NCBI GenBank assembly: GCA_026988435.1
Contig: JALSLH010000025.1
Span: 1 to 64,000 of the forward strand
DNA length: 64,000 nt
DNA from: Methylophaga sp.
GTDB lineage: Bacteria > Pseudomonadota > Gammaproteobacteria > Nitrosococcales > Methylophagaceae
Direction of reading: 5' to 3'
A program made the position numbers and the translations under genes. The notes beneath the pieces are model-generated. The model saw nothing but the letters and a program-made list of their open reading frames with translations. It searched no databases and had not been told where the DNA came from. Shown here piece by piece: positions 142-19,619 of this stretch; the first letter of the stretch is position 1; every line of letters begins with the position of its first letter.

Positions 142-1254
142 CTAAAACTGGTAAGCCAAACCAATATTTGCTCCGAAAGACTTCCAGTTTACGCCATTGA
201 AACCTGTTTCGAGTGATGTGCCATTAGAGAAAAAGGTTTTATCTACGCCGTTACGATCTGCCTGCCAATCTTGATATTTCATTGATAGTGTTAATAATAG
301 ATCGTTACTGACTTGATATTGACCGTTAATATTGCCAACTAAGCCATAACCCTCTGCTTCATGGGTGAAACTCTCGGGGTGCGCAAAGTCCGCACGTAAA
401 TTCCAATTTGCAGTTGCATTATAAAAGGCGTAATGGTATTCAAAATTAAGCCCCATTTTAAATTTTTGGTTGATTTTAAATTGGCTTTCAATACCAACCC
501 ACGGTCCCATCCAGGTGGCATCATAATTTGAGTCAAGCCCAGAAAATGCACCACGAGCAGGTATCGTTTGAAAACCATCGGTCATATTAAAAAACTGTGA
601 ATGATATGAAAAACCGACTTTCGGAATTAAATAAATATTCTGTTGAGCGCTCCACTGATAACCAGCATGAATACTCGCATCAATAACCGACCCCTTATCA
701 GCACTATTATTTGAGCGAGAAAATTCTAAGGTTCTATTATTACCGAAATAATCTGAATCTTGATTATCACCATCAAAAATATGACCGTAACTGAAATCAA
801 AATTGAGTAGCCAATTAGGTTGGAAGTAGAGTGTTGTTCCAATGTTAATAGTTGCGATTTCAATATCTTCCCACTCTAATTCAGATAGGATATTAGGCGT
901 GCCATTAATGCCTGAAATAGACCAATTTAAATCGTCTTTACGATAGCCAGTTGAGGCATAAAATTCAGCACGTTGATATTGTAAAATGGGCTTTTTATTT
1001 TCAAGCTTCTTAGCTGTATCAGCCGGTATAGCATGGTATTGCTCTAGTAAATTATCGCTAGCTTCAAAAACATGTGTTTGTAAGCGGTGTTTACGGGCAG
1101 GTGATTGCTCTGTGTTGATGTGTGAAAGCTGTTGCTCGGCCGAATGTGTTACCAGTTGTTCGTCATCGAACACGTGCATCTGCAATGTCGGGGCGGCAGT
1201 GACGGCTTTTATTGAAAGCAGTGCGGCTGAAGCGATGATGACGAACCCTCTCAT
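142..1254 (-). CDS. outer-membrane beta-barrel protein (omptin/Pom-like fold), last gene of the filament locus
   Basis: A 370-residue exported protein. A signal peptide covers residues 1-20 (cleavage near AVTA|AP). A polar linker to about residue 95 is followed by alternating aromatic/polar strands typical of a barrel. It ends in ...GLAYQF, a terminal aromatic residue as expected for BAM-inserted proteins. Acidic segments such as DGDNQDSDYFGNN recall the Protochlamydia-type outer-membrane protein/omptin-like families, but the omptin catalytic residues are not recognisable, so no protease activity is claimed. The gene starts at the last bases of the secretin gene (shared position 1254), so the two are probably translated together. 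The barrel may be an accessory outer-membrane part of the secretion/pilus system. This role is inferred from position only. Confidence 0.6.
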   Translation of the reverse strand: MRGFVIIASAALLSIKAVTAAPTLQMHVFDDEQLVTHSAEQQLSHINTEQSPARKHRLQTHVFEASDNLLEQYHAIPADTAKKLENKKPILQYQRAEFYASTGYRKDDLNWSISGINGTPNILSELEWEDIEIATINIGTTLYFQPNWLLNFDFSYGHIFDGDNQDSDYFGNNRTLEFSRSNNSADKGSVIDASIHAGYQWSAQQNIYLIPKVGFSYHSQFFNMTDGFQTIPARGAFSGLDSNYDATWMGPWVGIESQFKINQKFKMGLNFEYHYAFYNATANWNLRADFAHPESFTHEAEGYGLVGNINGQYQVSNDLLLTLSMKYQDWQADRNGVDKTFFSNGTSLETGFNGVNWKSFGANIGLAYQF

Positions 1255-3308
1255 TATTGAATGCTCGCGATTGTTTCATCAAAAGGCAATACTGATACCA
1301 CATACATAAATGTTGAATCATTAGATTGTCCTCGTCGGGCTAATAGATTATTTTCAACCGAAGAAGCCAACCATTTACCTTTTATCTTTGTATAATCAAC
1401 AGGCAAAGCTGAGTTCGCTTTATTGACAAGCTCTAATGCTGTTACGTACATTCCTCCACGGTTCCAACTCGCCAATGGCATCACTTTAATTTTATTATTA
1501 TCAAATAAGTTTGTTACAGCAATACGTTTCACTTTATCAGGTAAATACTTAGCATCGAGTTTGCGATCAATTTCAGCGATGCGGATAGTATCAGCCGCAT
1601 ATTGACTCATTTCCAGATAAACCTTCTGACTTTTGTTCGCTTTGTTATTAGTCGATGGTGTTGGATCTTTATCTATAAACTTATTAGGGTAGGGTGCAAG
1701 ATCGGGGAAACCATCATTATAAGATTGATAAAATTGATTATCTGCTTGTCGTATTTTTTCACTGTCTTCTGGATTGTAAATAATATGAGGAGTAATAAGT
1801 AGAACTGTTTCTGTATCTTGCTCACTTTCTATATCTGTTCTAAAAATCCTACCTAAAACTGGAATTTCTCCTAAAATAGGTACTTTTTTCTGATCTTTTG
1901 ATTTACTTGTACGAATTAAGCCGCCAACAGCAACAGTTAATCCGTCTTTTGCCACAACAGTGCCTGATAAGCGGGCAGTGTTCACCGTGTCAATTGCTAA
2001 ATTTACGATATCTCCCTCACCATTTGGTACAGGAAATGTACCTCCTGCTTTATTCACCGAGGAGCTCTCCTGTTCTAGCTCAATAGTCACAGTTTTATCA
2101 GAATTTATTCGTGGTGTTAACCGCAGAGTAATACCAATATCTTCCCGAACAACATTAGCATTAACATAAGCTCTTTGTACGATTATGCCATTATCAATAA
2201 GGGCTTGAAAGTAGGTGAAACCTTCAGTTATTAACTGCTCTTCACCAATAAATAATTCTGCTTCGCGGTGATTTGAGGCTAAAACCATCGGGTTTGATAA
2301 GACTTTTACACGTTTATTTTGTTCTAGAAATTCAATGTTAGCTCTAAGCTTAGAGTTTAAAAATTCATAGATCATTGACCCACTATTTAATAATGCATTA
2401 TTACCTATTTTAATTGGTTGCAATGATTGATTTCCGCCAGTAGGTTGTAATTCAAAGTTAAATATTGAATTAAAGTCTTCCCCCAAAATGATACTTAAAA
2501 TTTTCATTTCTAACATAACTTGAGGGATAGCAATATCTAGTTTTTTAATTAAACCATCAATGGCAGAAATTGCTTTGCGATCATCCGTTCTAACAAGGAT
2601 TATGCTGTGTTCATTATTGACAGTGATATAGATGGACTGAGAAGTGGTTGTCACTTTTTGTAATGTTTCAGTGTTGACTTCTTGACCTGATAAGCTAGTA
2701 GAAATATCTTCAACCTGATCCGCTGTTAATGTTGCAGTTGATAGTGTTGAACTTCCTGAACTAGTATTTCTTCTGCTACCTGCAGATCTTCTGCCACCTG
2801 TAGATCTTGAATTTCGTACGCCGTTACGGTTAGAGCTAGTTGAGGCTGATCCTGATTGTCCTGCTGCCGTTCCTAAAGACAAGATAACGCGGCTACCATA
2901 TAAATCTTGAATCGCTTGAGCAATGAGCTGGACATTAGCATTAAGTAAGTGAAAGACTTCAATATGTTCGCTATCGCGAATAATCAAGTCTTTACCATAT
3001 TCGTCACGTGTCATGATGCGATATGTTTTTGTATCCTCATCATAGCGGTACCATAAATTGGTAATTCGGCTAATGGATTTGATAGCATCAAGAACGGTGA
3101 CATTTCTCAGGCGAATAGTGACTTTATTTTTAGTCGCAGCAGGGGTGGCAATGACATTACTGTTCGATAATTCAGATAAAGTACGAATGACATCTGTTAA
3201 TTGTGTATCTGCAAATTCAATATCTTTTATTCGGCTATCAGCAAATGCAGAAAAGCTGACACTATAAAAGACTAGTAAGAATGAGGTAATAGAGAGCGTT
3301 TTTTTCAT
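1254..3308 (-). CDS. secretin (GspD/MshL/PilQ-type outer-membrane channel) with a TraK/DUF3438-like C-terminal extension
   Basis: A 684-residue outer-membrane pore subunit of a type IV filament or type II secretion machine. Signal peptide at residues 1-23. N0-like domain at 27-108 (IEFADTQLTDVIRTLSELS). N1-like domain at about 115-146. Then a Ser/Arg/Gly-rich low-complexity loop at 148-200 and the secretin core at about 215-512, with the signature VPILGEIPVLGRIFR at 476-490 and VLLITPHI near its end. Residues 513-684 are extra: after a linker, the segment RGGMYVTALELVNKA...KGKWLASS resembles the C-terminal domain of TraK/DUF3438 conjugation proteins. The PilP-like gene lies just upstream, 6 bases away. 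MshL is the nearest well-known relative by operon content. Exact subfamily uncertain. Confidence 0.85.
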   Translation of the reverse strand: MKKTLSITSFLLVFYSVSFSAFADSRIKDIEFADTQLTDVIRTLSELSNSNVIATPAATKNKVTIRLRNVTVLDAIKSISRITNLWYRYDEDTKTYRIMTRDEYGKDLIIRDSEHIEVFHLLNANVQLIAQAIQDLYGSRVILSLGTAAGQSGSASTSSNRNGVRNSRSTGGRRSAGSRRNTSSGSSTLSTATLTADQVEDISTSLSGQEVNTETLQKVTTTSQSIYITVNNEHSIILVRTDDRKAISAIDGLIKKLDIAIPQVMLEMKILSIILGEDFNSIFNFELQPTGGNQSLQPIKIGNNALLNSGSMIYEFLNSKLRANIEFLEQNKRVKVLSNPMVLASNHREAELFIGEEQLITEGFTYFQALIDNGIIVQRAYVNANVVREDIGITLRLTPRINSDKTVTIELEQESSSVNKAGGTFPVPNGEGDIVNLAIDTVNTARLSGTVVAKDGLTVAVGGLIRTSKSKDQKKVPILGEIPVLGRIFRTDIESEQDTETVLLITPHIIYNPEDSEKIRQADNQFYQSYNDGFPDLAPYPNKFIDKDPTPSTNNKANKSQKVYLEMSQYAADTIRIAEIDRKLDAKYLPDKVKRIAVTNLFDNNKIKVMPLASWNRGGMYVTALELVNKANSALPVDYTKIKGKWLASSVENNLLARRGQSNDSTFMYVVSVLPFDETIASIQ

Positions 3309-3314
3309 GATGGA

Positions 3315-3761
3315 TTATCTTTGAACACGAATTGAGCCTAGTAAGCCCGTTTCTACGGTGATACTTTGGCGAGTTATTTTAGTAACGCGGATAACGCTAT
3401 TAGGTTGAGAGGGATCGATATTAATATCATCACCTTCACGGACTAAATAGGTTCTAGCGCCTGCCACTTCGAGCAGAGCCATGGGCGACTTTTGATTTTG
3501 ATCAATAAAACCGCGTAAACGCATTTTAGGAATAGGTACATTACCGGGCGCACTGGTAAAGCCATTATTATTAAGAGCAGCAGATTGACTAGCCACTTCA
3601 AACATCAATCCACTTGGCGTGAAGGGATCGCGTATTGCTTGGGGGGCGACATTATTATTTGTTTGGTAATAAGCATTATTTGTTTGACCTGCGGCGTAGG
3701 TAGCTAAGGGTAAAATAAACAGCAAAGTTAGCGTTATATAATCTTTTATTTTTAAGAACAT
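3315..3761 (-). CDS. PilP/MshK/GspC-like periplasmic clamp protein
   Basis: A 148-residue protein with an N-terminal signal or anchor (residues 6-23). It carries the motif RDPFTPSG (about 44-51), shared by PilP and MshK-type proteins, then a small beta domain (about 80-148) with ALLEV, REGDDI and VTKITRQSITVE, as in the HR/PilP domains that link inner-membrane components to the secretin. It lies between the secretin and GspF genes, matching this job. It is short and divergent, so assignment rests on the RDPF motif, the domain pattern and context. Confidence 0.65.
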   Translation of the reverse strand: MFLKIKDYITLTLLFILPLATYAAGQTNNAYYQTNNNVAPQAIRDPFTPSGLMFEVASQSAALNNNGFTSAPGNVPIPKMRLRGFIDQNQKSPMALLEVAGARTYLVREGDDINIDPSQPNSVIRVTKITRQSITVETGLLGSIRVQR

Positions 3762-3764
3762 GTT

Positions 3765-4985
3765 TTAACCTCCGACCAAGGAAAAGAGTGCTTGGAAAAA
3801 TGCATAATAAACAAAGCCCACCATGCCACCGATAAATAAAATCATTGCGGGTTCAATGAGTGCAGATAGACGTTTGACGGCAATTTCTAATAACTGTTGA
3901 TAATAGCTTCCTAGTTCTTGCAGAATTCGGTCAAGACTTCCCGTCTTCTCACCAACGGTTATCATTTGCAAAACTAAAGCGGGCATTTGTGGGTGTTGTA
4001 GACTACTGACCATATCTTTACCGGTTAAAACATGATCAGAACCACGTTTCAGCAGATCAACATAAACACGATTATTAATAAGACCAGCTGTGATATTTAA
4101 TGCATCAAACACAGTGACACCACTGCGCAATAAGGTTGATAACCCCCACGTCATTTGCGCCATAGAGCTGGTGGTAATCATACCGCCAAATACGGGCACG
4201 CGAAGTAAAATACTATCGATAATGTAACGGCCTCGTTTTAGTTGGTATATAAGTAAAATAACAACGATTACAGCAATAGCTCCGCCAACAATATAAATTC
4301 CATTTTCTTCTACAAATGCAGAAGTATCGATAAGCGCTTGGGTTGACGCTGGTAAAGCTCTACCTTGAGCAAGTAAAAAGTCAGCAAATTTGGGTATAAT
4401 ATTGAGCGTCATAAATGCACCCACACCAATTGCAGCAACCAATACCACTGTGGGATAAATCATGGCATTAATCATTTGTGAACGGATAGCGGCCTTTTTT
4501 TCTAAATGAACTGCAAGTCGCTCCATTATTTCATCAAGATTACCGGTGTTTTCACCCGCAAAAATAAGATTGATAACCATTTCAGAAAAAACATCTTGGT
4601 GCTTTTTTAATGCTGTGGAGAGTGCTGTACCGGCTTCAATATCTTTTAACATCAGTTTAAGAACAAGTCTTAGGCGTGCACTCGACATTTGAGTTTTCGC
4701 TAATTCAAGTGCCTGTAATATTGGCAAACCAGCACGTAGCATAAAAGCCATTTGACGAAAGAAAAAGACTAAAGAGGCCGGTGAAACCGAACGTTGAGAA
4801 GCAAACCAGTCAGATACGTTTTCTTGACCTAAAAAGCCACTGCTACCACGTGCCGCTTTTATTTCAAGTACTCGCAAACCACGCTCACGTAAATCATTTG
4901 CCGCAGTAGCCATATCATCTGCTTGTTGTTTTCCTGACAGTTCTCCACCCGAAGAGGTCAATGCAGTATAGGCAAATAGTGCCAT
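3765..4985 (-). CDS. GspF/PilC/MshG-type inner-membrane platform protein
   Basis: About 406 residues. It contains two repeated GspF domains (roughly 75-195 and 280-400) with LVFFFRQMAFMLRAGLPILQALE in the first and TWGLSTLLRSGVTVFDAL in the second, and three hydrophobic segments. It forms the cytoplasmic-membrane platform on which the ATPase works to assemble filaments. I prefer the start at 4985 (MALFAYTAL), the usual GspF beginning, which has GAGG 10 to 13 bases upstream. An upstream in-frame ATG at 5009 would add eight residues and overlap the ATPase gene. Confidence 0.9.
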   Translation of the reverse strand: MALFAYTALTSSGGELSGKQQADDMATAANDLRERGLRVLEIKAARGSSGFLGQENVSDWFASQRSVSPASLVFFFRQMAFMLRAGLPILQALELAKTQMSSARLRLVLKLMLKDIEAGTALSTALKKHQDVFSEMVINLIFAGENTGNLDEIMERLAVHLEKKAAIRSQMINAMIYPTVVLVAAIGVGAFMTLNIIPKFADFLLAQGRALPASTQALIDTSAFVEENGIYIVGGAIAVIVVILLIYQLKRGRYIIDSILLRVPVFGGMITTSSMAQMTWGLSTLLRSGVTVFDALNITAGLINNRVYVDLLKRGSDHVLTGKDMVSSLQHPQMPALVLQMITVGEKTGSLDRILQELGSYYQQLLEIAVKRLSALIEPAMILFIGGMVGFVYYAFFQALFSLVGG

Positions 4986-4986
4986 C

Positions 4987-6633
4987 TTAGTGTGCCTCAA
5001 CCATGGCATGAGTCTTATGAATGGCTACATTTTGAAGCTCATCTAAGGTGGTCATGCCGTTTAGCACTTTTTGGCAGCCGTCTTCCCACATAAATTGAAG
5101 ATTGTCGCCGGCTTCTCTTTCAATTTTATCTTCGTCAGCACCTTGGGCAATTAAGCGTGATAGTGTGTCATCTATCCAAAAAGTTTCAAATAAACCTAAT
5201 CGACCACGAAATCCTCGACCTTGGCAAATAGCACAACCCACCGAATCATAAATGTTAATATCTTCTTCAGTTGTTCCTAATAGATTACGCTCATCATCCG
5301 TTGCTGTGCGAGATTTTCGGCAATGTGTGCATAAGCGACGCACTAATCGTTGAGCGATTACGGCGGTGAGTGTTGAACCTATTAAAAAAGGTTCACAGCC
5401 AATATCAATAAGACGTGTAACCGCACTCACCGCATTATTAGTATGTAATGTAGAAAAAACCAAATGACCGGTCATTGCGGCTTTTACTGATACATCTGCC
5501 GTTTCATGATCACGTATCTCACCCACCATTAATACATCAGGATCATGGCGTAATAACGATCGTAATGCGTCGGCAAAGCTTATTTTATGGCCTGTTTGAA
5601 TTTGTGAAACACCTTCCATCACATATTCAATCGGGTTTTCGACGGTCATGATATTCACTTCGGGATCATTAATTTCTTGTAAAGCAGCAAACAAAGTGGT
5701 TGATTTACCGCTCCCAGTTGGACCTGTGAGCAAAATCAGGCCATACGGTTTTTTAATGGTGGTTCTAAAGCTGTCGAGATCGTCAGCTAACATACCTAAA
5801 TCTGTTAGGCTCAAACCGCCGGACTCTTGCCCTAATAAACGCATGGTAATACGTTCGCCTAATCGGGTAGGCGCTGTTGCAACACGAACATTAAATTCAC
5901 GATCGATAGGCGCGACTAAATGATAAGAAAAGCCCCCATCTTGTGGTTGGCGCGTTTCGGCAATATCTAGACCAGATAATACTTTCACACGTGATACTAA
6001 ACCTGCCGCTACGGAAGCATTGGCATCAACTGGATGATCACGTAATTTACCATCAATTCGCAGGCGCACCCTTAAACCTTCTTCTTCAGTCACAAAGTGA
6101 ATATCGGATGCTTGGTTGAGATAAGCTTCACGGATAATAGAATCTAATAGCTCAACGAGATCGATTTCATCTTCAACTGTGTTTTCAGAATCGGTTGAGG
6201 TCGTGCTTGGCAGCGCGCGTTCAATCATTAACCGTAATACTTGAACATCAGCCATCACTAAAGGCAGGTTTGCCCCTAATAACCTTAAAATAGAATCAAT
6301 GGTGCCGCGATCTTTGGGATCAGAAATAACTAACTGCGCCCCGTCACCATCAATAATAGGTAATAATTGTTTTCGTTTGATAAGATTCGCCGGCACTTTT
6401 TTAAGAAGATCTGCATGGGGTTTTCGGCTACTAAGATCAATATAATCTAGCCCATTACTTTCTGCCACAGCACGATATAAGGCAGAAGTAGGGAAGCGAT
6501 ATTGCGCTAAGATCAAAGGTAAAATGGCGGTGCGTTGACGGCGGGCATCAATGCGCAAACGTTCTAATACCGGCGCTTCAATTAGGCCCGTATTTACGCC
6601 TGCTTTGATTAATGTTTCGTCTGAAATCGCCAT
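4987..6633 (-). CDS. GspE/PilB/MshE-type assembly ATPase
   Basis: A 548-residue hexameric ATPase that powers filament assembly at the inner membrane. Residues 1-130 form an MshEN-type N-terminal domain. The ATPase core follows, with Walker A GPTGSGKST at 304-312, Asp box near VENPIEY, Walker B LMVGEIRD, and a His box (FSTLHTNN). The tetracysteine zinc motif is C435-x2-C438 and C467-x2-C470. The length matches the family. Start supported by AGGAAAT a few bases upstream. The only filament ATPase here; no PilT-type retraction ATPase is encoded in the window. Confidence 0.92.
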   Translation of the reverse strand: MAISDETLIKAGVNTGLIEAPVLERLRIDARRQRTAILPLILAQYRFPTSALYRAVAESNGLDYIDLSSRKPHADLLKKVPANLIKRKQLLPIIDGDGAQLVISDPKDRGTIDSILRLLGANLPLVMADVQVLRLMIERALPSTTSTDSENTVEDEIDLVELLDSIIREAYLNQASDIHFVTEEEGLRVRLRIDGKLRDHPVDANASVAAGLVSRVKVLSGLDIAETRQPQDGGFSYHLVAPIDREFNVRVATAPTRLGERITMRLLGQESGGLSLTDLGMLADDLDSFRTTIKKPYGLILLTGPTGSGKSTTLFAALQEINDPEVNIMTVENPIEYVMEGVSQIQTGHKISFADALRSLLRHDPDVLMVGEIRDHETADVSVKAAMTGHLVFSTLHTNNAVSAVTRLIDIGCEPFLIGSTLTAVIAQRLVRRLCTHCRKSRTATDDERNLLGTTEEDINIYDSVGCAICQGRGFRGRLGLFETFWIDDTLSRLIAQGADEDKIEREAGDNLQFMWEDGCQKVLNGMTTLDELQNVAIHKTHAMVEAH

Positions 6634-6641
6634 CGTATTTC

Positions 6642-7322
6642 CTATAAAGCCAACACAAGTTCAGCTTTAAGTCTTTGTGGCTGACCCCGCAAAGGGCTAA
6701 TGGGCAATATTTCAATAGACACCCGAACAGGCGTAACCTGCCACTGTAGTTTTTCAAGGCCATGAATGAAGCTACGTATGGATTGATAGTTACCATCTAA
6801 TACTAATAGTTGTAGTGGGCGGTGAAAAACCGATTGTTGTGACAAACGGTCAATCCAACTTCGATTAACAGGTAAAATTAAATTTGATGCATTAATTGGT
6901 GTTTTGGCTTTAGCCTTTGCTTTGGGTTTGTTAATTTTTGTTAGAATAGGGGGGCGAAACTCTTCATTGGTTCTGATGCGAACGCCTGAGCGTGTTGCAA
7001 GTTCTGAGATACGCACTTTTAGTTCCTGTGAATTAAAAGGTGCTAAATGTTGTGCGACGCTATCAGCCATGCTTTGGGTTAACGCCAAAGTGCGCTCTTT
7101 CTCATCAAGCTCTTTTAATAATTCTTCAACATCTTTTTCTGGTTCATTAGGGATATCGGCTTTAAACAGTTTACTTTGTGTTTTTTCTACTTGCCGATGT
7201 AGTTTATCGATAGCATCATTTTTAGGAATAAAACGCAAGAACGAATAAGCACCAAGAATTAATACCGCAATGACAAGAGCAAACAGAATTTGTTCTGTTT
7301 TTTTTAATTTCGAGAGCGTCAT
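6642..7322 (-). CDS. PilO/GspM/MshJ-like inner-membrane protein
   Basis: A 226-residue bitopic protein with one transmembrane helix (about residues 11-30), a coiled-coil stretch (about 36-90) and a small periplasmic domain at the end (VLDGNYQSIRSFIHGLEKLQWQV, residues about 175-197, the PilO/GspM ferredoxin-like pattern). Its ATG overlaps the stop of the PilM/N-like gene by four bases, the order pilM-N-O of pilus operons. It presumably pairs with the PilN-like part of its neighbour to form the alignment ring. Sequence identity to named families is low, so the call rests on architecture and position. Confidence 0.65.
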   Translation of the reverse strand: MTLSKLKKTEQILFALVIAVLILGAYSFLRFIPKNDAIDKLHRQVEKTQSKLFKADIPNEPEKDVEELLKELDEKERTLALTQSMADSVAQHLAPFNSQELKVRISELATRSGVRIRTNEEFRPPILTKINKPKAKAKAKTPINASNLILPVNRSWIDRLSQQSVFHRPLQLLVLDGNYQSIRSFIHGLEKLQWQVTPVRVSIEILPISPLRGQPQRLKAELVLAL

Positions 7323-9088
7323 TGTATCGCCTGTTGCTTTTTAATCGAATCAGCAGACACTAATTTAACTAAGCGCATAGATACCGCAAAGCCATCAATC
7401 TTCATTGGGCCAGGGCGCGAAAACACTTTGCTATCGCGTACTTCTAAACCCCAAGGTTCAAGCGCCTCTTTCATGCTTTGAATAAATGTTTGTGCGGCTG
7501 ATTCTGTTAATGCCCATGCGGCAATATTAAAGTTTTCTACCTCGACACGATTGTCTTTAACTCTTGTCGGTAAAGCAGGCATAACACTAACGCGTTTACC
7601 TAATTCATCGATGTTAGTAATAAGAATCTCATCACTTGCTGCCGTGGGCAAAACACCTAACACAGCTTGAACTAATGCAACGCGATCAGGAATGTCTTCA
7701 CTAAAAAATTTTAATCGTGCTTGCGCGCGCTGGTTTTTTGTTTCTTGTTCTTTGAGGAGTGCTTTTCGTTTCTCAACTTGCTGTATTTGACTATTCACCC
7801 GTTGCATGGCGCTATTGATTGTTTTCCAGCGGGAATCAACTTCTGCTTTAGTAGATTGAATTTGATGATCGCGAATAAGTAAGCTAACTTCAGTACCAGC
7901 AATGATAAGAAACAAGGCTAAAAATAAAGCAATAGCACGCACCTCGACCCGCTCCCAAAGCGAGGGTAATGGCCCACCCAAGCGCACATTAGTACATCGG
8001 TTTGAGCTTGCCGCTGATAAAGCGTGCAAACTTGCACCTGCCATGCCGGGGCTAACGCCATCTGTTATAAGTGCTTGATCTAAAATTATTGGCGTTATAT
8101 CAAGCGTGTCTTTTAACTCATTGGCTAGCTCTTGGCTATCATCTTGCCAATCGGCTAAATATGCCGCCTCTGTTGCAGATGGATTTAAAGTATGGAAGCT
8201 TTCTATGCACAACTCAACAGGTTGTTTAGCAGGATTAACCAGTAGAAATTGCGCGACTATTTTGTCTTCAACAAGTTGTTGCACAAAAGCAGAATCAGCA
8301 TGAGACTCTAGCAGAATTGCATCAGATGCTTTATCCGCCAATAAAACAGAGCTACAACCAGCAAGCGGGTACATTGCCTGTAAAGTTACACCCTGTGTGC
8401 TGAATGTTTTTGTCCAACGCTGTAATAATGACTTGCTTGTGCAACTGACCAGCCAATTATATGTTCCGGGAATGTCAGGCACTTCACCTTGAGGGATCCA
8501 ACCACATTCAATTTCTTCATCATCTGATTTAAGCCATTCTTGGCCAGCAAGGCAAGCTTTAAGTTGGCTAGAGCGAATATAACCGAGTTCTTCGGCTAAT
8601 TCACCAAAACGACGCAAGGCAAATTTATCTGCTATTCCAAGACCACCAGCAGTATTAGGTTTGGACTGTTGCATGTCTATTACTGCTTCGGCTTGCTCTG
8701 CTGTCATATAACCTCGACCAACTAATAAATGACCTACAGACCACTTCGTGGCATGTTGCATTAATAAGGGTTCAGCTTCCCATCGAACCAGCTCTTGCAT
8801 CTGTGGCAATGGGCGAGGTTTTTTAGGGTTAACAGGTAATTCTATAATCGTAGATAAAACAGTAGGAGAGAGCAAAACAGCTTGATCGCCATCCCAACCC
8901 TCATTTTTTAATTGTTTGATTAAGTCAGCAACCGCATCAGCCATATTAGCTTGTTGTGATTGCGCCTTATGAATAACAACGATTTCTTTGCCTGCACGGG
9001 TAAACACCGCACCACGCATAATAAAACCATCTGTTTCACAGACTAAAAGTGATTTGGCTTTGCCGAAATTAAAAAGGGATTTCAGCAT
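7319..9088 (-). CDS. PilM-PilN/GspL-like fused inner-membrane assembly protein with inserted MshEN-like repeats
   Basis: 589 residues. The N-terminal cytoplasmic part (1-120 and about 205-340) looks like the actin-like PilM/GspL fold. A transmembrane helix lies at about 383-404, preceded by GGPLPSLWERVEVR. A coiled coil and a PilN-like periplasmic domain follow (about 410-575). Between residues about 120 and 187 are two short repeats, LVGRGYMTAEQAEAVIDMQ and FGELAEELGYIRSSQLKACL, that resemble the MshEN-type module normally found at the N-terminus of GspE-like ATPases. The start overlaps the stop of the pseudopilin gene upstream (TAATG), so translation is probably coupled. The fusion of PilM- and PilN-like parts resembles GspL. 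Function is inferred. Confidence 0.65.
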   Translation of the reverse strand: MLKSLFNFGKAKSLLVCETDGFIMRGAVFTRAGKEIVVIHKAQSQQANMADAVADLIKQLKNEGWDGDQAVLLSPTVLSTIIELPVNPKKPRPLPQMQELVRWEAEPLLMQHATKWSVGHLLVGRGYMTAEQAEAVIDMQQSKPNTAGGLGIADKFALRRFGELAEELGYIRSSQLKACLAGQEWLKSDDEEIECGWIPQGEVPDIPGTYNWLVSCTSKSLLQRWTKTFSTQGVTLQAMYPLAGCSSVLLADKASDAILLESHADSAFVQQLVEDKIVAQFLLVNPAKQPVELCIESFHTLNPSATEAAYLADWQDDSQELANELKDTLDITPIILDQALITDGVSPGMAGASLHALSAASSNRCTNVRLGGPLPSLWERVEVRAIALFLALFLIIAGTEVSLLIRDHQIQSTKAEVDSRWKTINSAMQRVNSQIQQVEKRKALLKEQETKNQRAQARLKFFSEDIPDRVALVQAVLGVLPTAASDEILITNIDELGKRVSVMPALPTRVKDNRVEVENFNIAAWALTESAAQTFIQSMKEALEPWGLEVRDSKVFSRPGPMKIDGFAVSMRLVKLVSADSIKKQQAIQ

Positions 9089-10221
9089 TATTGGATGATC
9101 CAGTCTAGTGTGATATTTTGGCGGGGGGCAACATTAAACTTGCGAATATCATTCAAAGCTGGGATTGCATTGCTCGCACTGTTGCAATCACCATCGAATA
9201 GAACATAGTTGTCTGGGTCGCCCGCTGGTGTTTCATAGCAAACTACAGCATAGCCATGCATTCCGATTGGCACGGCATTGGATGAATCAAAATAAAATAA
9301 CTTAGAATGGTTATTGTTTGAAGGTATAGCATCAGTTGGGAGATTTAATGTCGTTGTCGAGCCATCATCACCTGTTTTGTAATCTGTGATTGAAGATAAA
9401 TAGATCCGTAAGTTTACATTTTCACCCAAGACTGCTGTTGGAAGTGCATCACTGGTATTACGATTGATAAAGTTGATATTAATATTATTAATCCGCCAGT
9501 CAGAGGCTTCAATCAATGGCGTGACACTAATATCATCTGCAGAATTAGTTAAATCATAACTAGCGCTACTGACATCAATACCAAAAGTTGCACCACTTGC
9601 ATCAATTAATGGGGTAAAAGTCCAGCCAGAGTTCTTAGAATCAATTGCGATTACATTGTCAGAGGTACCGTAACCATCACGAAAGCGAAGATCAGGCTTA
9701 CCATCACTATCTTTATCTCTTTCCGGAATAACTTGAATATAAGGGCCGCGCCAGCCTGAGCCAATTCCAGTTGCGGGATTAATATTCCAAGCTGATAAAA
9801 TAGTAGCAGGATCCGCACAATTTTTTTGTTCGATAAGTTCGCGCACACAATTAGGCAACCGCCCCATATCCGCCACAAAGCCACTGATTTCAGGGCCGCC
9901 ATTAATGGTGCGGGTGGGGGCGCCGACAATGGCTTTACGCATCATCTCCATCCGGCGTTTGGTTTCATCGTATTTGGCTTGGTCTTCTACATTCTCAGTC
10001 AGCATTAAGGTGGCAGAAGCCATTAAACCAATTAAAAATAGCACTAACACCATTTCTAATAAAGTAAACCCAGATTGCATGCCACGCCCAATCCTTATCA
10101 TTCCGGTATTTACACCCCCCGTCATTCCGGTAGCTTTTAGCCGGAATCTTCTAGCTGTTAAAACCTGAAGGTCAGACTTCACAGGGCTAATGTGGAATAA
10201 AGTTGAGCATTTATTTATCAT
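9088..10221 (-). CDS. type IV pilin-like / pseudopilin protein (GspG-like), start uncertain
   Basis: The prepilin peptidase site is G|FTLLEMVLVLFLIGLMASA, followed by a hydrophobic helix and a soluble domain with SGWRGPYI and RDGYG patterns of GspG-type pseudopilins. The open frame is 377 codons. The first ATG (10221) overlaps the upstream stop (ATGA), suggesting coupling, but gives a 50-residue leader that runs through a dispersed repeat (10121-10150). More conventional leaders start at 10101 (MIRIGRGMQSG) or 10080 (MQSG). The C-terminal 200 residues, low in charge and with two cysteines (CYETP, GDCNS), are not recognised. Probably a minor filament subunit. Confidence 0.75.
   Translation of the reverse strand: MINKCSTLFHISPVKSDLQVLTARRFRLKATGMTGGVNTGMIRIGRGMQSGFTLLEMVLVLFLIGLMASATLMLTENVEDQAKYDETKRRMEMMRKAIVGAPTRTINGGPEISGFVADMGRLPNCVRELIEQKNCADPATILSAWNINPATGIGSGWRGPYIQVIPERDKDSDGKPDLRFRDGYGTSDNVIAIDSKNSGWTFTPLIDASGATFGIDVSSASYDLTNSADDISVTPLIEASDWRINNININFINRNTSDALPTAVLGENVNLRIYLSSITDYKTGDDGSTTTLNLPTDAIPSNNNHSKLFYFDSSNAVPIGMHGYAVVCYETPAGDPDNYVLFDGDCNSASNAIPALNDIRKFNVAPRQNITLDWIIQ
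10121..10150. repeat. dispersed GTCATTCC-type repeat, single arm
   Basis: The sequence beginning GTCATTCCGGTAGCTTTTAG and ending CCGGAATCTT is closely similar to each arm of the inverted repeat at 58789-58899 (GTCATTC..., ...TCTTTTA..., CGGGAATCT). A further CATTCCGG copy starts at about 10099. Such CCGGAATGAC-containing repeats are usually extragenic and mobile. Here the repeat lies inside the leader region of the pseudopilin frame. Confidence 0.5.
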
Positions 10222-10877
10222 CGTAATAAAAACACCACGAAATCATCATCTGCACCCATGCTCACAATCGCGGCAGAATTGTCATTAGATAAGTCTACAA
10301 GAAAATAAGGGGTGTCATAGGGGGTCTTTACACTTGGGATACCATCGATGCCTGAATCGCTAACGAGTACACTCTTGTTTTGAAGATAGGGACCATTCCA
10401 CCCTCGGTGGGTATCAGGATCCCATTCACCTTCTTCGATAGCATTGGTATTAGGATCATCTTTCGGGTTGGTGAATAGCATCCAAAAGTTAGCGGTGCTG
10501 GCACACCAATCTTCCCAATCTGTTTGATTGGCTTGTGCTGAAGGTGCACTTGCTGGCCAATTATCAGCAAGACCATTAGCAGTATCAAAAATAACAGCAT
10601 CATTAGAAAGAGTAGCGCAGTCATATGCGCCAATCGTTGGAAAATCATTACTACCACTATCACGCCGAAATTGCAGTAATGCTTTGCGCAGTTCTGCCAT
10701 TTCAAACTTTGTGGCATCAGCACGCCCTTGCTCTTTTACGCCATCATAAGCGGTGATTACCACACCGGCCACAATCGCTAATAATGCAATGACAACCAAA
10801 AGTTCAAGTAGGGTGAAACCTAACTGTTTTTGTTGTTTTATTGTGCGGTTAAGTTGAAAAAACAATAAACACCTCAT
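10218..10877 (-). CDS. GspG/GspH-like pseudopilin
   Basis: 219 residues. Leader of about 20 residues (basic, with KQQKQLG), then the prepilin cleavage motif G|FTLLELLVVIALLAIVAGVV and a long N-terminal helix. The soluble part contains WNGPYLQNKS and TPYDTPYFLVDL, resembling the WxGPYL and calcium-loop region of GspG-type major pseudopilins. It lies downstream of the probable major pilin and upstream of another pseudopilin, separated from the former by two stem-loops. No strong ribosome site is visible before the ATG. Likely a filament subunit; whether it is major or minor is unknown. Confidence 0.8.
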   Translation of the reverse strand: MRCLLFFQLNRTIKQQKQLGFTLLELLVVIALLAIVAGVVITAYDGVKEQGRADATKFEMAELRKALLQFRRDSGSNDFPTIGAYDCATLSNDAVIFDTANGLADNWPASAPSAQANQTDWEDWCASTANFWMLFTNPKDDPNTNAIEEGEWDPDTHRGWNGPYLQNKSVLVSDSGIDGIPSVKTPYDTPYFLVDLSNDNSAAIVSMGADDDFVVFLLR

Positions 10878-10906
10878 TTACTTGTTTTTATAAATTAATT
10901 TCAAAT

Positions 10907-10947
10907 ACTATGCTAAACCGTGTTGGCTTAACCGTGTTTAGCATAGT
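10907..10947. other. 12-bp inverted repeat (stem-loop) upstream of the pseudopilin gene
   Basis: ACTATGCTAAAC at 10907-10918 pairs perfectly with GTTTAGCATAGT at 10936-10947 across a 17-base loop. It lies 30 bases before the pseudopilin start (10877). Together with the stronger hairpin at 10983-11010 it could limit transcription or protect the upstream pilin mRNA, or act as an operator. Confidence 0.4.
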
Positions 10948-10982
10948 AGTCGTCATCATTAAGGAGAATAAAAGATAAGAAA

Positions 10983-11010
10983 GCGGGACAAGATAATTAC
11001 CTTGCCCCGC
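10983..11010 (-). terminator. stem-loop after the pilin gene, probable partial terminator
   Basis: On the minus strand GCGGGGCAAG pairs with CTTGTCCCGC around an 8-base loop and is followed by TTTCTTATCTTTT. It lies 43 bases past the pilin stop codon and inside the otherwise collinear filament operon. This suggests partial termination or 3' end protection that leaves pilin mRNA in excess over the downstream genes. Confidence 0.65.
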
Positions 11011-11052
11011 AGTCCTTTTACGTTGTTAACTTGATGTTATAAAAACGTCAAA

Positions 11053-12123
11053 TTAGCCTGCCGCGTTTGCTGCAGCAATCACTTCATCACGTGTGCGACC
11101 TTCAGGGTCAACCACACCGATTAAACGTGCTTTGTTCAGGATTTCAGTTGCATCAATAACGCCATCTTCATTATCGTCTGTACCGAGATGGAATAATGCG
11201 ATAGCACGTGCATATTCAGTTGAAGGATTCACATTATTAGTTCCTAAAGTAGGAACTTGCGCAATTTCAACTTTGTCGCCCGATGTTGAACCTGGGACGT
11301 CTTTTCCAAAACCCACTGCAATAACTAAAGAACAGATTTCACTATCCAGTGCATCATTGATTAAGTTTAAGCGTGTATTATTAGTAACTGTGACTGCTGC
11401 AAAATCAGTAGCGAGAGAAGGGCCACCTGTACCTAACACACAACCAGCACCTAGTGTAACTGATGGCACAATTGAAACACCTACACTAGTACTTGCGATA
11501 GCTGCGCCATCAAAAAGTGCACCTGATACATCACTTTCCCATACTGAAAATTCACTACCTGGGTTGGTAGTTAAAGGGTAACTTTCATTTAACGCTAGGT
11601 TAGGCACATAACCGACAGCAAATGCAGCGGTACTATCAACGGCCTGAAGCTCTTCAACACCTACTGAATTCAGTGAGTTACCGACTGCTCGCCAAACAGA
11701 AGTCGTGCTAGGAGCTACATCTGCAGCTGCAAGAGTCAATTGACCAAAGAACGCATTGGTTGCTGTACCGCGTAGTATTTTCATACCACCAGTATCAATA
11801 CCATCTACATTGGCCAAATTATCCCATTGATTTGGGTAGCCCGCTTCAATCGCACGGTAGTTATTTAATGAGCTTTGTGCATCTAACAAGTTGTTTGCAG
11901 CAGCAGTATCAGAAGCTGATTCGCCGATGCCGTTATAAGCTGTTAGTGCAGCTGTTGCTAAAACTGCAATCAATGTGATTACGATTAATAGCTCTAGTAA
12001 TGTGAAACCTTTTTGTTTCGCTTGTAGTTTTTGTGCTTGTGCACGTGTTGCATCATCTTTGATGATGGATACATCAGCCGCGCGGAATGTGCTTAATGCA
12101 CTTTTCATTTGTTTGATATTCAT
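11053..12123 (-). CDS. probable major type IV pilin-like subunit with a long leader
   Basis: 356 residues from the preferred start at 12123 (MNIKQMKSAL), which has GAGAGA just upstream; an earlier in-frame ATG at 12180 lacks a ribosome site. A leader of about 39 charged residues precedes the cleavage motif G|FTLLELLIVITLIAVLATAA. The mature part begins with the usual helix and is rich in Ala, Thr, Ser and Asn, with two cysteines (GCVLG, EICSL). First gene of the operon and followed by a strong hairpin, so I take it as the most abundant subunit. Class III-like leaders are normally shorter than 15 residues, so the leader length is unusual. Its C-terminal domain is not recognised. Confidence 0.75.
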   Translation of the reverse strand: MNIKQMKSALSTFRAADVSIIKDDATRAQAQKLQAKQKGFTLLELLIVITLIAVLATAALTAYNGIGESASDTAAANNLLDAQSSLNNYRAIEAGYPNQWDNLANVDGIDTGGMKILRGTATNAFFGQLTLAAADVAPSTTSVWRAVGNSLNSVGVEELQAVDSTAAFAVGYVPNLALNESYPLTTNPGSEFSVWESDVSGALFDGAAIASTSVGVSIVPSVTLGAGCVLGTGGPSLATDFAAVTVTNNTRLNLINDALDSEICSLVIAVGFGKDVPGSTSGDKVEIAQVPTLGTNNVNPSTEYARAIALFHLGTDDNEDGVIDATEILNKARLIGVVDPEGRTRDEVIAAANAAG

Positions 12124-12206
12124 TATCGTCTCTCTTGTTATTTGGGATGCCGCAATTGCGCCGCGCAATCTGTTGGTCATTTAAGTTTTACTTTCAAATA
12201 ATCAGA

Positions 12207-12235: not shown

Positions 12236-12433
12236 TTATGCTTGTTGCGGTGTGTCTACAACAAAGCGATATTGTTTGCCACAGTGAATGATGACTTCTT
12301 TTTGCTTGCGCTTAAGAATTTTGACTTCAACTTTTATTTCACCAAAACCATCGTGTTTCAGTATTTCATCAAAAAGTGCCAACATTTTTTTCTCGGCGGG
12401 CACTGAACTGTGTTGTATGCTATCTGTCGTCAT
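12236..12433 (-). CDS. small conserved-looking protein of unknown function
   Basis: 65 residues, charged, no signal peptide or membrane helix. The C-terminal half (residues about 30-60, KVEVKILKRKQKEVIIHCG) is predicted strand-rich and basic; one cysteine. It lies between the pilin gene and the divergent sensor kinase, and reads in the same direction as the filament operon. I do not recognise a family. It may be a small regulator or assembly factor for the filament genes, by position only. Confidence 0.5.
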   Translation of the reverse strand: MTTDSIQHSSVPAEKKMLALFDEILKHDGFGEIKVEVKILKRKQKEVIIHCGKQYRFVVDTPQQA

Positions 12434-12675: not shown

Positions 12676-14025
12676 GTGTATGGAAATAATGAAATGAGTC
12701 TACGCACATTAATTAATCTACGGATTGTGTTTTCAGTGATCTTTATTTTGCTATTAGGTGGCGCAACCGCTGTTTGGCAGGCGCGGCAATCGGTCGCAAA
12801 AGAGGTTCAGTCAACGATTACATTAGCTTTGCAGATGATTGAGTTTGGTTTTGCGCAAGCCCCGGCGGAAAGTAAAAATAATAGTGAATGGTTATCACAG
12901 ATAAGCGCTTTGCAGCAGGCTCGGCATTTGCAGATTTCTATTGCACAAGAGGGTGAAAAACCTGTTAAATTTGTTACTAAGCGCGTTGTGAAGGAGGATG
13001 AAAATAGGCCGCCTGAATGGTTTATTGAAGCGGTGATGACGGAATATTTGACAGAGCGTTATGATGTGAAAATGGCTGATGGTAGTAAAAAAACAATTCT
13101 TATTACAGCGAATCCGATGGATGAAATTACGGAGGCATGGGGCGAATCTAAAGCATTTTTCTGGTCAGTTGTGGTGATGTTATGGGTGATATTTTTAGCG
13201 ATTAACTTAGTATTTAGTTCGATGTTACGCGCAGTGCAAGGCATTTTAATGGGGCTGCATCAAGTGGAGCTGGGTAAATATGATAGTGTTATTGCACCAT
13301 CAAAAATTAGTGAGTTTGATGCGATTGCTGTTGAGATAAATGATATGGCGCGGGCATTGCAAAAAGCCCAAGAAAATAATCAGGCATTAGCTCGGCACAC
13401 GATGAATATTCAAGAAACAGAGCGCAAAACCATGTCGAGGGAGTTGCATGATGAGATGGGGCAGTCATTAACCGCAATCAAGGCGATGGCTGTTGCTTCA
13501 AAGCAGGGTAATGTTGATGCGCCATCAATAGCTGATTCAATTATTGAGATTTGTGATCATTTAGCCAAGGTGGTTCGTTCAATGATGCGAACGCTTCATC
13601 CATTAAGTTTAGCTGAGTTAGGTCTGGGTGCGACGATGACTGATTTAGTGAATGAATGGCGAAGACGTCAACCCTCGCTCGATATAGATTTTCATTATGA
13701 TGACAAACTAGAAATGCTTGATAATGAAGTTGCTATTAATGTTTATCGCGTGGTGCAGGAGTGTTTAACCAATGTTGTGCGCCATGCTAATGCTACAGAG
13801 GTTACTATAGAGGTTTATTCGGTGGCCGAAGGTTCTAATGAGCCCCGAGTATCATTAATGGTGAGTGATAATGGCGTGGGTGGTAAAGTAGGGGCGCAAG
13901 GTTTTGGTGTTTTAGGAATGCGTGAACGTGTTGAAAACTTGGGTGGCAAGTTTAGTTTTGAATCAGCTAAAGGTATGACGGTGAATGCGTGGATGCCATT
14001 CATAAGGAAGAAAGGTAATGAGTGA
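12676..14025 (+). CDS. sensor histidine kinase, NarX/UhpB-like with LapD/MoxY-type N-terminus
   Basis: 449 residues from a GTG at 12676; an ATG at 12694 (MSLRTLINLR) is an equally good start. Transmembrane helix 1 at about 17-35, a periplasmic domain to about 160 similar to the LapD_MoxY_N type, helix 2 at about 161-185, a HAMP-like segment, then HisKA_3 (ETERKTMSRELHDEMGQS, phosphoacceptor His in ELHDE) and HATPase (N box QECLTNVVRHANA, DNGVGG, GFGVLGMRERV). Stop overlaps the start of the response regulator by 8 bases. The signal is unknown. Adjacency to the pilus locus suggests but does not prove control of it. Confidence 0.88.
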   Translation: MYGNNEMSLRTLINLRIVFSVIFILLLGGATAVWQARQSVAKEVQSTITLALQMIEFGFAQAPAESKNNSEWLSQISALQQARHLQISIAQEGEKPVKFVTKRVVKEDENRPPEWFIEAVMTEYLTERYDVKMADGSKKTILITANPMDEITEAWGESKAFFWSVVVMLWVIFLAINLVFSSMLRAVQGILMGLHQVELGKYDSVIAPSKISEFDAIAVEINDMARALQKAQENNQALARHTMNIQETERKTMSRELHDEMGQSLTAIKAMAVASKQGNVDAPSIADSIIEICDHLAKVVRSMMRTLHPLSLAELGLGATMTDLVNEWRRRQPSLDIDFHYDDKLEMLDNEVAINVYRVVQECLTNVVRHANATEVTIEVYSVAEGSNEPRVSLMVSDNGVGGKVGAQGFGVLGMRERVENLGGKFSFESAKGMTVNAWMPFIRKKGNE

Positions 14026-14671
14026 GAAGCTTAAAGTGTTATTAGTTGATGACCACACTGTAGTACGTGCGGGCTTTCGAATATTGCTATCGACGCAAGA
14101 TTTTATTGACGAAATTATGGATGTTGATCGTGGTGAAGCGGCTTGCCAGAATTATAATGAATTTAAACCAAACGTGGTGGTCATGGACTTATCGATGCCC
14201 GGAATTGGTGGTTTAGAGACAATACGTCGTCTTATTCAACTTGATGCTGATGCTGTCGTGCTGGTTTATAGTATTCATGATGAGGCTATTTATGTAGAGC
14301 GGGCATTGCAAGCTGGGGCGAGAGGTTATGTCAGCAAAAACAGTGCGGCAGAAGTGTTAGCTGAAGCTGTGGCGGTAGTGGCATCAGGCAAGCGATATGT
14401 TGAAGATGGATTGTTAGTAGATCAGGAAAATAGCGCTTATAATGATGAAGATAAATTAAGAGAAGTGGTTGATGTATTATCACCACGAGAGTTTGATGTT
14501 TTTTGTTTATTGGCTAAAGGTATGACAGCACGCGAGGCGGCGACTGATTTGTGTTTAGGTTATAAAACTGTCGCAAATTACAGCACACAGATTAAAAATA
14601 AGTTAAATGCGAGCACGGCGGCAGACTTGGCGCGTATCGCAATGACGTTGGGAATTATAAAAAGTCATTAA
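14018..14671 (+). CDS. NarL/FixJ-family response regulator
   Basis: 217 residues. Receiver domain at 1-125 with the phosphoacceptor Asp57 (VVMDLSMPG), acidic pair VDDH at 10-13 and Lys of SKNS near 108. C-terminal LuxR-type helix-turn-helix at about 150-210 (LSPREFDVFCLLAKGMTAREAA). Overlaps the kinase gene, its obvious partner. The usual Thr/Ser region reads LVYSIHD. Targets unknown; the downstream PepSY gene and the divergent filament locus are candidates. Confidence 0.9.
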   Translation: MSEKLKVLLVDDHTVVRAGFRILLSTQDFIDEIMDVDRGEAACQNYNEFKPNVVVMDLSMPGIGGLETIRRLIQLDADAVVLVYSIHDEAIYVERALQAGARGYVSKNSAAEVLAEAVAVVASGKRYVEDGLLVDQENSAYNDEDKLREVVDVLSPREFDVFCLLAKGMTAREAATDLCLGYKTVANYSTQIKNKLNASTAADLARIAMTLGIIKSH

Positions 14672-14747
14672 ATATTCCTATATCCTATGATATTCAGGAA
14701 AAACTCCTATATAATAGTAGTCAGTGATTGTTGTTCTTGTGGGTAGA

Positions 14748-14765
14748 AAATAATCGATTATTTTT
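14748..14765. promoter_or_regulatory. 18-bp perfect palindrome in the PepSY gene leader
   Basis: AAAATAATCGATTATTTT lies 20 bases before the PepSY start codon, downstream of a TATAAT box at 14711-14716. It could be an operator for the adjacent response regulator or a weak hairpin in the 5' leader. No -35 box stands out, consistent with activator dependence. Confidence 0.35.
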
Positions 14766-14785
14766 AACTTTAACTGGATATAACA

Positions 14786-15334
14786 ATGAAAAATACATTC
14801 TTAAAAATAGTACCAGCTGCTCTGGCTGTTGCACTTTCTTCAAATATATACGCGAGCGATCAAGCTGACCTTGATGATATTAAAGGTTGGGGCTTAGTGG
14901 GTGTTGAAGTATGTTTAGATGCGGCATTAGACACTATTCCAGGTCAAGCACGTAAGCTTGAATTAAAAATGGAAGGCGATGATCCTACTTATGAATTTGA
15001 TATTCAAGCAGAAGATGGCACAACATATAATGTTGAATGTAATGCTGAAGAAGGCTTTGTAACTGAAGTAGAGCGTGAAGTTTCTGCTGATGATGCGACA
15101 TTCAAAAAATATGCAAAAATTACAGAAGCGCAAGCGCGCACAATCGCTTTAGACTTTAACCCAGGTAAAATTGTTGCTAATGAATATGAAATTGGTACTG
15201 ATGGTTCAGTTACTTATGAATTTGATATTCAAACTGTAGCGGGTTACGAAATTAAAGTTGACGTTGATGCGGCAACAGGTGAAATAGAAGAAGCAAACAT
15301 CGAATTATACGAAATTGGTATGGAGCAAGAATAA
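14786..15334 (+). CDS. periplasmic PepSY-domain protein
   Basis: 182 residues with signal peptide (1-23, cleavage after IYA). Two PepSY-like modules: about 40-95 and 108-175, the second with AKITEAQARTIALDFNPGKI and the repeat motif TYEFDIQ occurring in both. Acidic overall. PepSY proteins are often small exported proteins encoded beside two-component systems. The conserved double module here may inhibit a protease or bind a metal or the sensor domain of the neighbouring kinase. This is inference. A clear terminator follows. Confidence 0.8.
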   Translation: MKNTFLKIVPAALAVALSSNIYASDQADLDDIKGWGLVGVEVCLDAALDTIPGQARKLELKMEGDDPTYEFDIQAEDGTTYNVECNAEEGFVTEVEREVSADDATFKKYAKITEAQARTIALDFNPGKIVANEYEIGTDGSVTYEFDIQTVAGYEIKVDVDAATGEIEEANIELYEIGMEQE

Positions 15335-15362
15335 GCCGTAATTACTTATTTTTGAGCTAAAG

Positions 15363-15399
15363 AAAAGCCACTGGTGCAATCTGCATCAGTGGCTTTTTT
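15363..15399 (+). terminator. rho-independent terminator after the PepSY gene
   Basis: AAAAGCCACTG (15363-15373) pairs with CAGTGGCTTTT (15387-15397) and continues into a T run. The inverted A/T flanks allow it to work in both directions, here closing the PepSY transcript and the convergent small gene. Confidence 0.85.
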
Positions 15400-15473
15400 G
15401 TGTTTGCGACTTATGGCTGGCAAGCCTTTCGATGGTGATTGCCGCGCCTTTGCGTGCATTAGTGGCAGTATTG

Positions 15474-15764
15474 TTATTCAGTGGATTCTTCTTTAGTCGT
15501 GAGTTCCGTAGAAACAGGCTCAGCTTCAATTGATGTAGGTATGATTTCGTCTGGTACAGCTTCCACCGCCGCAGGAGCCATTTTTTCCTGTTGCCATTTT
15601 GCTAACCAATATTGGACACCACCTCCATACCAACCTTGAGAGGACGACCCAGAATAAACATTAGCTGCCGTTGTATAACCATTATTTGAACCCGCGAGCA
15701 GTGTGCTGGAACTAGCAAGTAGTAATGATGATATTAACAATGTATTTATAACGTTATTTTTCAT
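15474..15764 (-). CDS. small exported protein of unknown function
   Basis: 96 residues with a signal peptide (1-24, LLASSSTLLAG). The mature part has a Gly/Ser/Tyr-rich segment (GYTTAANVYSGSSSQGWYGGG), the motif VQYWLAKWQQEK, and an acidic tail rich in Glu and Pro. I recognise no family. It stands alone between a terminator and the hup operon, on the same strand as hupC, so it may be a monocistronic gene or be cotranscribed after hupC. Real by its signal peptide and codon use, but unproven. Confidence 0.5.
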   Translation of the reverse strand: MKNNVINTLLISSLLLASSSTLLAGSNNGYTTAANVYSGSSSQGWYGGGVQYWLAKWQQEKMAPAAVEAVPDEIIPTSIEAEPVSTELTTKEESTE

Positions 15765-15885
15765 GATATAGCCTTGTTAATTTAGGAGTAATTAAAGTCG
15801 GCTATATGTTACTTATTACTTCGTTATTCAGTAGGATGTACTAAGCAACAAATAGCCGATATCTACTATAAAGACAGATTAATGA

Positions 15886-19612: not shown

Positions 19613-19619
19613 CAGCCAT

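Follow-up and report, generated by a model that had tools for sequence, protein, structure and literature searches.

A type IV filament locus of its own clade in Methylophaga, probably encoding a pilus machine

The window analysed here, a stretch of 64,000 nucleotides, is contig C25 of the 2.57-Mb metagenome-assembled genome of a Methylophaga-like, marine methanol-using bacterium. It begins with a locus of ten open reading frames, all on the minus strand and running in one direction from 12180 down to 142, most of which overlap or lie a few bases apart, in the order pil1, pp2, pp3, MN, O, E, F, P, secretin and Pom. From their gene content, conservation and clade, all of them computed, and from predicted domain folds, we infer with reasonable confidence a complete type IV filament machine with a clade of its own; its most likely product is an extracellular pilus, which probably serves in attachment. 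The locus is a new branch within the known type IV filament superfamily, and nothing outside that superfamily: it contains in one place an ATPase, a platform protein and a type IV pilin, which are the components of the generic type IV filament model (PMC6668835).

A separate clade and its distribution

The sequence-only reading had described ten collinear genes for a pilin, two pseudopilins, a PilM/N-like fusion, a PilO-like protein, GspE, GspF, a PilP-like protein, a secretin and a barrel protein. This content is borne out by the list of open reading frames and by Pfam and NCBIfam, which recognise three prepilins with N_methyl motifs, T2SSE with MshEN, T2SSF, Secretin with DUF3438, and Pom. 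The labels PilO and PilP stand in part, as weak matches come from relatives (PilO 0.003 and PilP 0.0011, both in the Neptuniibacter locus L058) and the window's PilP, PilO and PilM/N-like fusion have no significant Pfam match. The ten-gene order is not due to chance, since it is kept at 25–95% identity across many genomes.

The trees draw their reference ATPases, platform proteins and secretins from hits to MshL, GspE and PilB, almost all of which exceed their curated cut-off, and from Omnitrophota loci. The references thus cover Gammaproteobacteria and Omnitrophota only, and their type IVa pili (T4aP) are all gammaproteobacterial. In the ATPase tree the core group, which includes the window's locus, forms one clade with 100/100 support that appears in all bootstrap trees. 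Its platform proteins form a clade with support of 99 and its secretins one with support of 100, which, in a tree without PilQ, adjoins the mannose-sensitive haemagglutinin (MSH) family with support of 81. The sequences of the type II secretion system (T2SS) have their own 100-supported clades in the ATPase and platform trees, and gammaproteobacterial T4aP and the core group likewise occupy separate clades (100-supported for the ATPase, 99/100 for the platform protein). By these sequence comparisons E, F and the secretin each fall in a single supported clade, distinct from the MSH, T2SS and T4aP of Gammaproteobacteria; a deep separate clade with the same gene order in other genomes was the outcome that the sequence-only reading had named as the mark of a new system. 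Neptuniibacter is placed differently in the secretin and ATPase trees, which suggests an exchange of modules. The secretin-ATPase-platform loci of Omnitrophota (L065–L082) also form well-supported clades of their own in all three trees and are possibly another undescribed filament family.

MSH is the nearest family in the secretin tree and resembles the present system in having one large locus without a prepilin peptidase and an ATPase that bears MshEN. The lack of a prepilin peptidase had been correctly observed from the sequence but does not serve as a distinctive trait, because MSH loci are also without one (PMC6668835). A divergent MSHA pilus is nevertheless very improbable, as nesting of the core group inside MSH, the placement that would have undone the claim of a separate system, is rejected with a p-AU of 1.3e-5. 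Moreover, the MshL model yields 109.6 bits against a cut-off of 250.2, and mshM, which is mandatory in the MSH model (PMC6668835), is found neither in the locus nor in homologous loci. The gene order differs too, PilM and PilN are fused, the secretin has an extra tail, and a separate MSH-type locus is present in the same genome, where genes for a platform protein, for pilins and for a 1445-aa DUF6701 protein come after an MSH-clade ATPase that is apparently split over contigs C24 and C31. This MSH-type locus comprises L196 (9223–17941) and L195 (1–1388), apparently split over the two contigs, and its genes before the ATPase are unlike mshL–mshN.

The genome also encodes a genuine T4aP, with PilB over the cut-off, PilC and the genome's only prepilin peptidase on contig C53, PilT and PilU on C9 and a second PilU-like ATPase on C52. 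Since the organism has T4aP and MSH-type loci of its own elsewhere, the window's locus is an additional system. That it might be an ordinary type IVa pilus lineage rearranged into one operon is suggested by its PilM/N/O/P-like set and secretin and by the PilT of the sister type, and T4aP are themselves polyphyletic (PMC6668835), with a grouping of the core with T4aP not rejected. In contrast to the T4aP arrangement (PilMNOPQ, PilBCD, PilT), however, the genes form a single operon together with the pilins, with the ATPase and platform protein between O and P, and show a fusion of PilM and PilN, an MshEN-like segment within that fusion and a TraK-type secretin tail. The PilB and PilQ models reach only 457 of 676 and 106 of 284 bits, and with the separate ATPase and platform clades and the coexisting T4aP such a rearranged lineage is doubtful.

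The system is shared by a few other marine bacteria, and the MN protein was found in 17 of 75 related genomes. The same gene order occurs in 14 other Methylophagaceae loci, in two Colwellia and in one further Alteromonadales genome (Alteromonadales bacterium alter-6D02, locus L280); in the Methylophagaceae loci L025–L037 the window's order is kept at 32–95% identity. A sister type carries a PilT-like ATPase gene between those for O and E. It is seen, without Pom, in one Methylophaga (L038) and in Neptuniibacter (L058–L062), and it also occurs in three distant gammaproteobacterial loci (L192, L193 and L194); among these three, Pom is present in L193, and L192 is accompanied by genes for a prepilin peptidase and a subtilase. 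The window's locus thus represents subtype A, without PilT, whilst subtypes B and C contain it, so the absence of PilT reported from the sequence is correct for this locus and fails as a general trait. In L194 an ISL3-type transposase gene (14156–15454) splits the locus between pil1 and pp2, and MN and E are each broken into two frames.

Strong MN matches are rare, occurring in 5 of 369 genomes of an even class sample and, within a phylum sample of 398 genomes, in the window's genome and alter-6D02 only; short weak matches elsewhere fall mostly on the MshEN-like segment or a coiled coil. Several further possibilities were rejected. Viral contigs contain no MN relative, and plasmids give no MN match, the secretin matching there only other secretins over about half of the query. 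The Neptuniibacter loci, with tail-less secretins and PilT, are not a different system, as gene order and trees place them in the core clade. Nor is a PilT for subtype A hidden elsewhere: the genome has three PilT/PilU-like genes, all of which join ordinary PilT/PilU (85/80) rather than the core PilT.

The secretin tail and the outer-membrane barrel

The secretin (1254–3308) is 684 aa long and matches PF00263 with an E value of 1e-36. Its C-terminus had been noted as foreign from the sequence alone, and this region (1257–1643) indeed matches DUF3438 (E 2.6e-14) and has a TraK-type predicted fold. The last 129 residues, folded alone by AlphaFold2 with a pLDDT of 92.5, find their best match within the Protein Data Bank (PDB) in 7spb chain C1, part of the outer-membrane core complex of the F-plasmid type IV secretion system (T4SS) (Foldseek E 2.3e-4). 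The two superimpose with a Z score of 10.0 over 105 residues at 2.9 A, covering chain residues 132–241. Chain C1 was identified as TraK because the TraK C-terminal domain is given as residues 136–238 (PMC8770708). The second match, 7oko, has a Z score of 9.1, and the next rows are unrelated eukaryotic adaptor domains at 5.9. A sequence search of the tail against the PDB gave no match, the fold comparison alone identifying it. By predicted fold and sequence family the tail belongs to the TraK or VirB9-like C-terminal domains.

A profile of the tail, run over all open reading frames of the gathered loci, matches core secretins and no other frame. The tail is present in the distant L193 secretin (2.3e-5) and absent from the Neptuniibacter secretins. 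In locus L025, that of the closest relative, the secretin stops early within the tail (15741–15858), probably through a frameshift or assembly error, since tblastn spans the full query.

In the F-plasmid complex the outer ring is formed by the TraK C-terminal domain, packed against TraV (PMC8770708). By analogy, the tail may act as an anchor or ring at the outer membrane. The closest known counterparts of the tail, over about 125 residues, are the TraK/VirB9-like subunit of the conjugative T4SS core complex, by fold, and the family TIGR03749/DUF3438 of integrative and conjugative elements, by its DUF3438 match. Unlike TraK, the domain is joined here to a secretin, and the TraK N-terminal domain and the T4SS partner genes are absent; no TraV-like gene was seen in the locus. 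In T2SS secretins, the pilotin-binding S domain sits where the TraK-type tail sits here. For the fusion of a secretin with a TraK-type domain no precedent was found, a search of a literature library yielding no paper that joins DUF3438 with a secretin.

The locus ends with an outer-membrane beta-barrel of the Pom family (PF17251, E 1.5e-76; 142–1254), in agreement with the barrel protein that had been read there from the sequence. Pom occupies the same place in most loci, including the distant L193, and is missing in some.

Inner-membrane parts, prepilins and the probable product

MN (7319–9088) appears to consist of a PilM/GspL-like actin-fold cytoplasmic domain, a long transmembrane helix and a PilN/GspL-like periplasmic domain, in keeping with its earlier description as a PilM/N-like, GspL-like fusion. 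Its AlphaFold2 model (pLDDT 82.5) shows an actin-like domain, then a very long helix and, at the C-terminus, an alpha/beta domain on which the list of PDB matches says little. The actin-like domain resembles PilM (2ych, Z 18.2) and EpsL (1yf5, Z 13.5); FtsA scores equally, and it is the position in the operon that favours PilM/GspL. The predicted structure has the succession of actin-like fold, membrane helix and periplasmic domain by which PilM/GspL proteins are recognised, and TIGR01709 (GspL) matches two of 21 MN members (9e-5).

Within MN, at about residues 105–190 (8519–8776), lies a segment with half-motifs at residues 117–140 and 160–183 in tandem, as in MshEN, a receptor domain for cyclic di-GMP (PMC5013675). 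Homology with MshEN is supported by NF053729, which matches 19 of the 21 members (best 7e-5), and by the Vibrio cholerae MshE structure 5htl, matched at profile positions 119–186 with an E value of 0.0018. The segment differs in its host, a PilM/GspL-like protein rather than an ATPase, and in its spacer, about 19 residues long in the window's MN as against five in MshEN (PMC5013675). MshEN is recognised by two RLGxx..Q half-motifs that carry the key Arg and Gln, a pattern that the segment lacks: the window's motif I begins SVG rather than RLG, motif II reads RFG..Q, and no member keeps the key Arg of motif I, which gives way to Ser, Thr, Asp or Asn. Given this replacement, cyclic di-GMP binding by the segment is not supported, and nucleotide binding by MN is considered as a possibility only.

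The assembly ATPase E (4987–6633) matches T2SSE (E 2.8e-119) and MshEN (5e-10); its N-terminus fails even a relaxed MshEN motif, and cyclic di-GMP binding by E was rejected. F (3765–5009), the inner-membrane platform protein of the GspF/PilC type, matches T2SSF with an E value of 3e-51. The PilO/GspM-like platform protein (6642–7322) is recognised by position, size and a weak T2SSM match (0.026), and the PilP-like protein (3315–3761; PilP 0.15), in which no lipobox was seen, follows F.

The operon starts with a gene for a 65-aa protein (12236–12433, minus strand) that has no significant Pfam family and bears the signature HDGFGEI(K/R)VE..ILKR.QKEVI.HCGKQYRFVVD. It lies upstream of the pilin in all the Methylophaga, Colwellia, alter-6D02 and L192/L193/L194 loci with enough upstream sequence; three Neptuniibacter loci, in which the upstream DNA is truncated, did not show it. 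The probable major pilin, pil1 (11053–12180; N_methyl E 4e-9), has a long leader before the cleavage motif GFTLLELL. It is followed after 43 bases by a terminator-like hairpin (10983–11010, minus strand) of 12 pairs and a T tail. Of 23 loci, 21 have a hairpin with a T-rich tail at this junction, and its sequence differs among them; this would be expected if one abundant subunit, pil1, were made in excess. The GspG-like minor pilin pp2 (10218–10877) matches N_methyl (E 3.6e-8), TIGR01710 in its N-terminal part (E 9e-11) and T2SSG (0.006), and pp3 (9088–10221), a minor pilin with an N_methyl motif and the candidate tip subunit, differs in length among loci, with sizes of about 330–640 aa. The window's pilins are 69% (pil1), 54% (pp2) and 59% (pp3) identical to those of L025, compared with 95% for the ATPase and 93% for the platform protein, and this fast change, together with the size range of pp3, fits the pattern of surface-exposed subunits. 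At the far end of the window (62994–63881) is a partial O-antigen-ligase-like gene with Wzy_C and Wzy_C_2 domains. Homologues with a PglL_A signature stand directly beside the filament genes in L030, L031 and other loci, which suggests pilin glycosylation.

These traits bear on whether the product is a pilus or a pseudopilus. In T2SS-type protein secretion, a short periplasmic pseudopilus would drive exoproteins through the secretin. Like a T2SS, the locus combines a GspL-like fused MN, GspE, GspF and GspG-like pilins in one operon; the pilin N-termini are GspG/GspH-like and the best secretin model is GspD, at 147 bits. Yet the T2SS models stay far under their cut-offs (GspE 487 of 630, GspD 147 of 351, GspF 294 of 424 bits), there are three prepilins rather than five, and the ATPase and platform protein lie outside the T2SS clades. 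GspC, mandatory in the T2SS model (PMC6668835), is not seen in the locus, a distant GspC fold not having been searched for. The locus consequently lies outside the models of both MSH and T2SS, much as it had been said to fit neither exactly. The PilT of the sister loci, the hairpin after pil1, the rapid change of the pilins relative to the motor, the variable size of pp3, the PglL-like ligase genes beside several loci and the lack of a GspC-like gene all favour a pilus, and a T2SS-type role is unlikely, if less so than the rearranged T4aP lineage.

A number of points weigh against a separate pilus machine. Subtype A, the window's own, has no PilT, pp2 and pp3 are GspG-like, and the subtilase gene adjoining L192 could encode an exported substrate. 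The PilO-like protein also evolves fast (57% between the window and L025), so the argument from pilin rates is not exclusive. The core group with MSH, or with T4aP, as sister groups is not rejected and its grouping with T2SS has a support of 50; tree sampling is narrow and fixes no sister group, and the separate clade holds within this sampling.

In the pilus machine as proposed, a prepilin peptidase encoded elsewhere would mature the three prepilins. The ATPase E would work through MN, together with O, P and F (the platform protein), to polymerise a filament made mainly of pil1; pp2 and pp3 would be its minor subunits, probably located at the tip. The filament would leave through the secretin. 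At the outer membrane the TraK-type domain of the secretin probably makes an outer ring or holds one in place, and Pom, which is commonly but not invariably encoded, would be an outer-membrane partner. A linked MxaY-like two-component system probably governs expression, and through its MshEN-like segment MN may link the platform to a signal.

The linked kinase, neighbouring genes and significance

Divergent from the filament operon, on the plus strand, are an MxaY-like histidine kinase with a LapD_MoxY periplasmic domain (12676–14025; 5.9e-6), a NarL/LuxR-type response regulator with Response_reg and GerE domains (14018–14671) and an acidic exported LanPepSY-like protein (14786–15334) with two PepSY domains (PF03413, E 1.4e-17 over two stretches; 22% Asp and Glu). 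Together these three adjoining genes (12676–15334) form a possible lanthanide-response module, in which the PepSY protein is only a candidate for a link to the filament. MxaY of Methylomicrobium buryatense is a lanthanide-switch kinase with a LapD/MoxY domain (PMC5018670, PMC6115532). Besides this domain MxaY is marked by Glu147; with numbering from MSLR, all 19 kinase homologues here share a Glu at position 147, a candidate counterpart of that residue.

The kinase–regulator pair is directly upstream of the filament in alter-6D02 and, by position, also in two Colwellia and in Methylophaga SAT92 and OBS4, and in other Methylophaga loci it lies downstream of the secretin or Pom. Within the genus, kinase orthologues occur in eight of nine genomes with MN and two of 20 without (Fisher p 8.6e-5, with no correction for relatedness). 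In one filament-less genome (G006) the pair stands beside a pyrroloquinoline quinone (PQQ) methanol dehydrogenase and in another genome (G009) the contig that carries it also encodes a PQQ dehydrogenase, so the first job of the pair may be alcohol oxidation. PQQ alcohol dehydrogenases over the cut-off were found in all eight genomes tested, seven of which have the filament or the MN gene, and those read carry WDxDG, which we take to be the lanthanide-type signature. Lanthanide control is only a lead, because these genomes include no control set of filament-free ones. A bolder and rather speculative proposal puts the filament machine under lanthanide control. In this view it would have been co-inherited across orders with the regulator and the MxaY-like kinase, an outer ring derived from conjugation machines would hold the secretin, and bacteria that have lanthanide-type alcohol dehydrogenases would use the pilus for attachment or for behaviour related to metals.

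Further along the window, translations indicate three NiFe-hydrogenase gene sets with maturation genes and regulators (16628–25456, 28308–37022 and 40342–45472). Genes for an aldolase, a fructose-bisphosphatase and a triosephosphate isomerase stand in a row between hydrogenase clusters (37212–40264).

Type IV filaments have been sorted into a handful of families, with hundreds of "generic" systems unassigned (PMC6668835), and one such generic group now has a defined content. A literature search found no description of the system in Methylophaga, Neptuniibacter or Colwellia. It can be recognised by the 65-aa first gene, the M-N fusion with an MshEN-like segment and the order pilins-MN-O-[T]-E-F-P-secretin-[Pom]. 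Methylophaga thiooxydans and strains of Neptuniibacter are members available in culture. If true, the secretin-TraK fusion would mean that an outer-ring module of conjugation has been reused in a pilus machine, where the role of the ring would be testable outside conjugation. The conserved neighbouring kinase, in turn, raises a regulatory question in marine methylotrophs.

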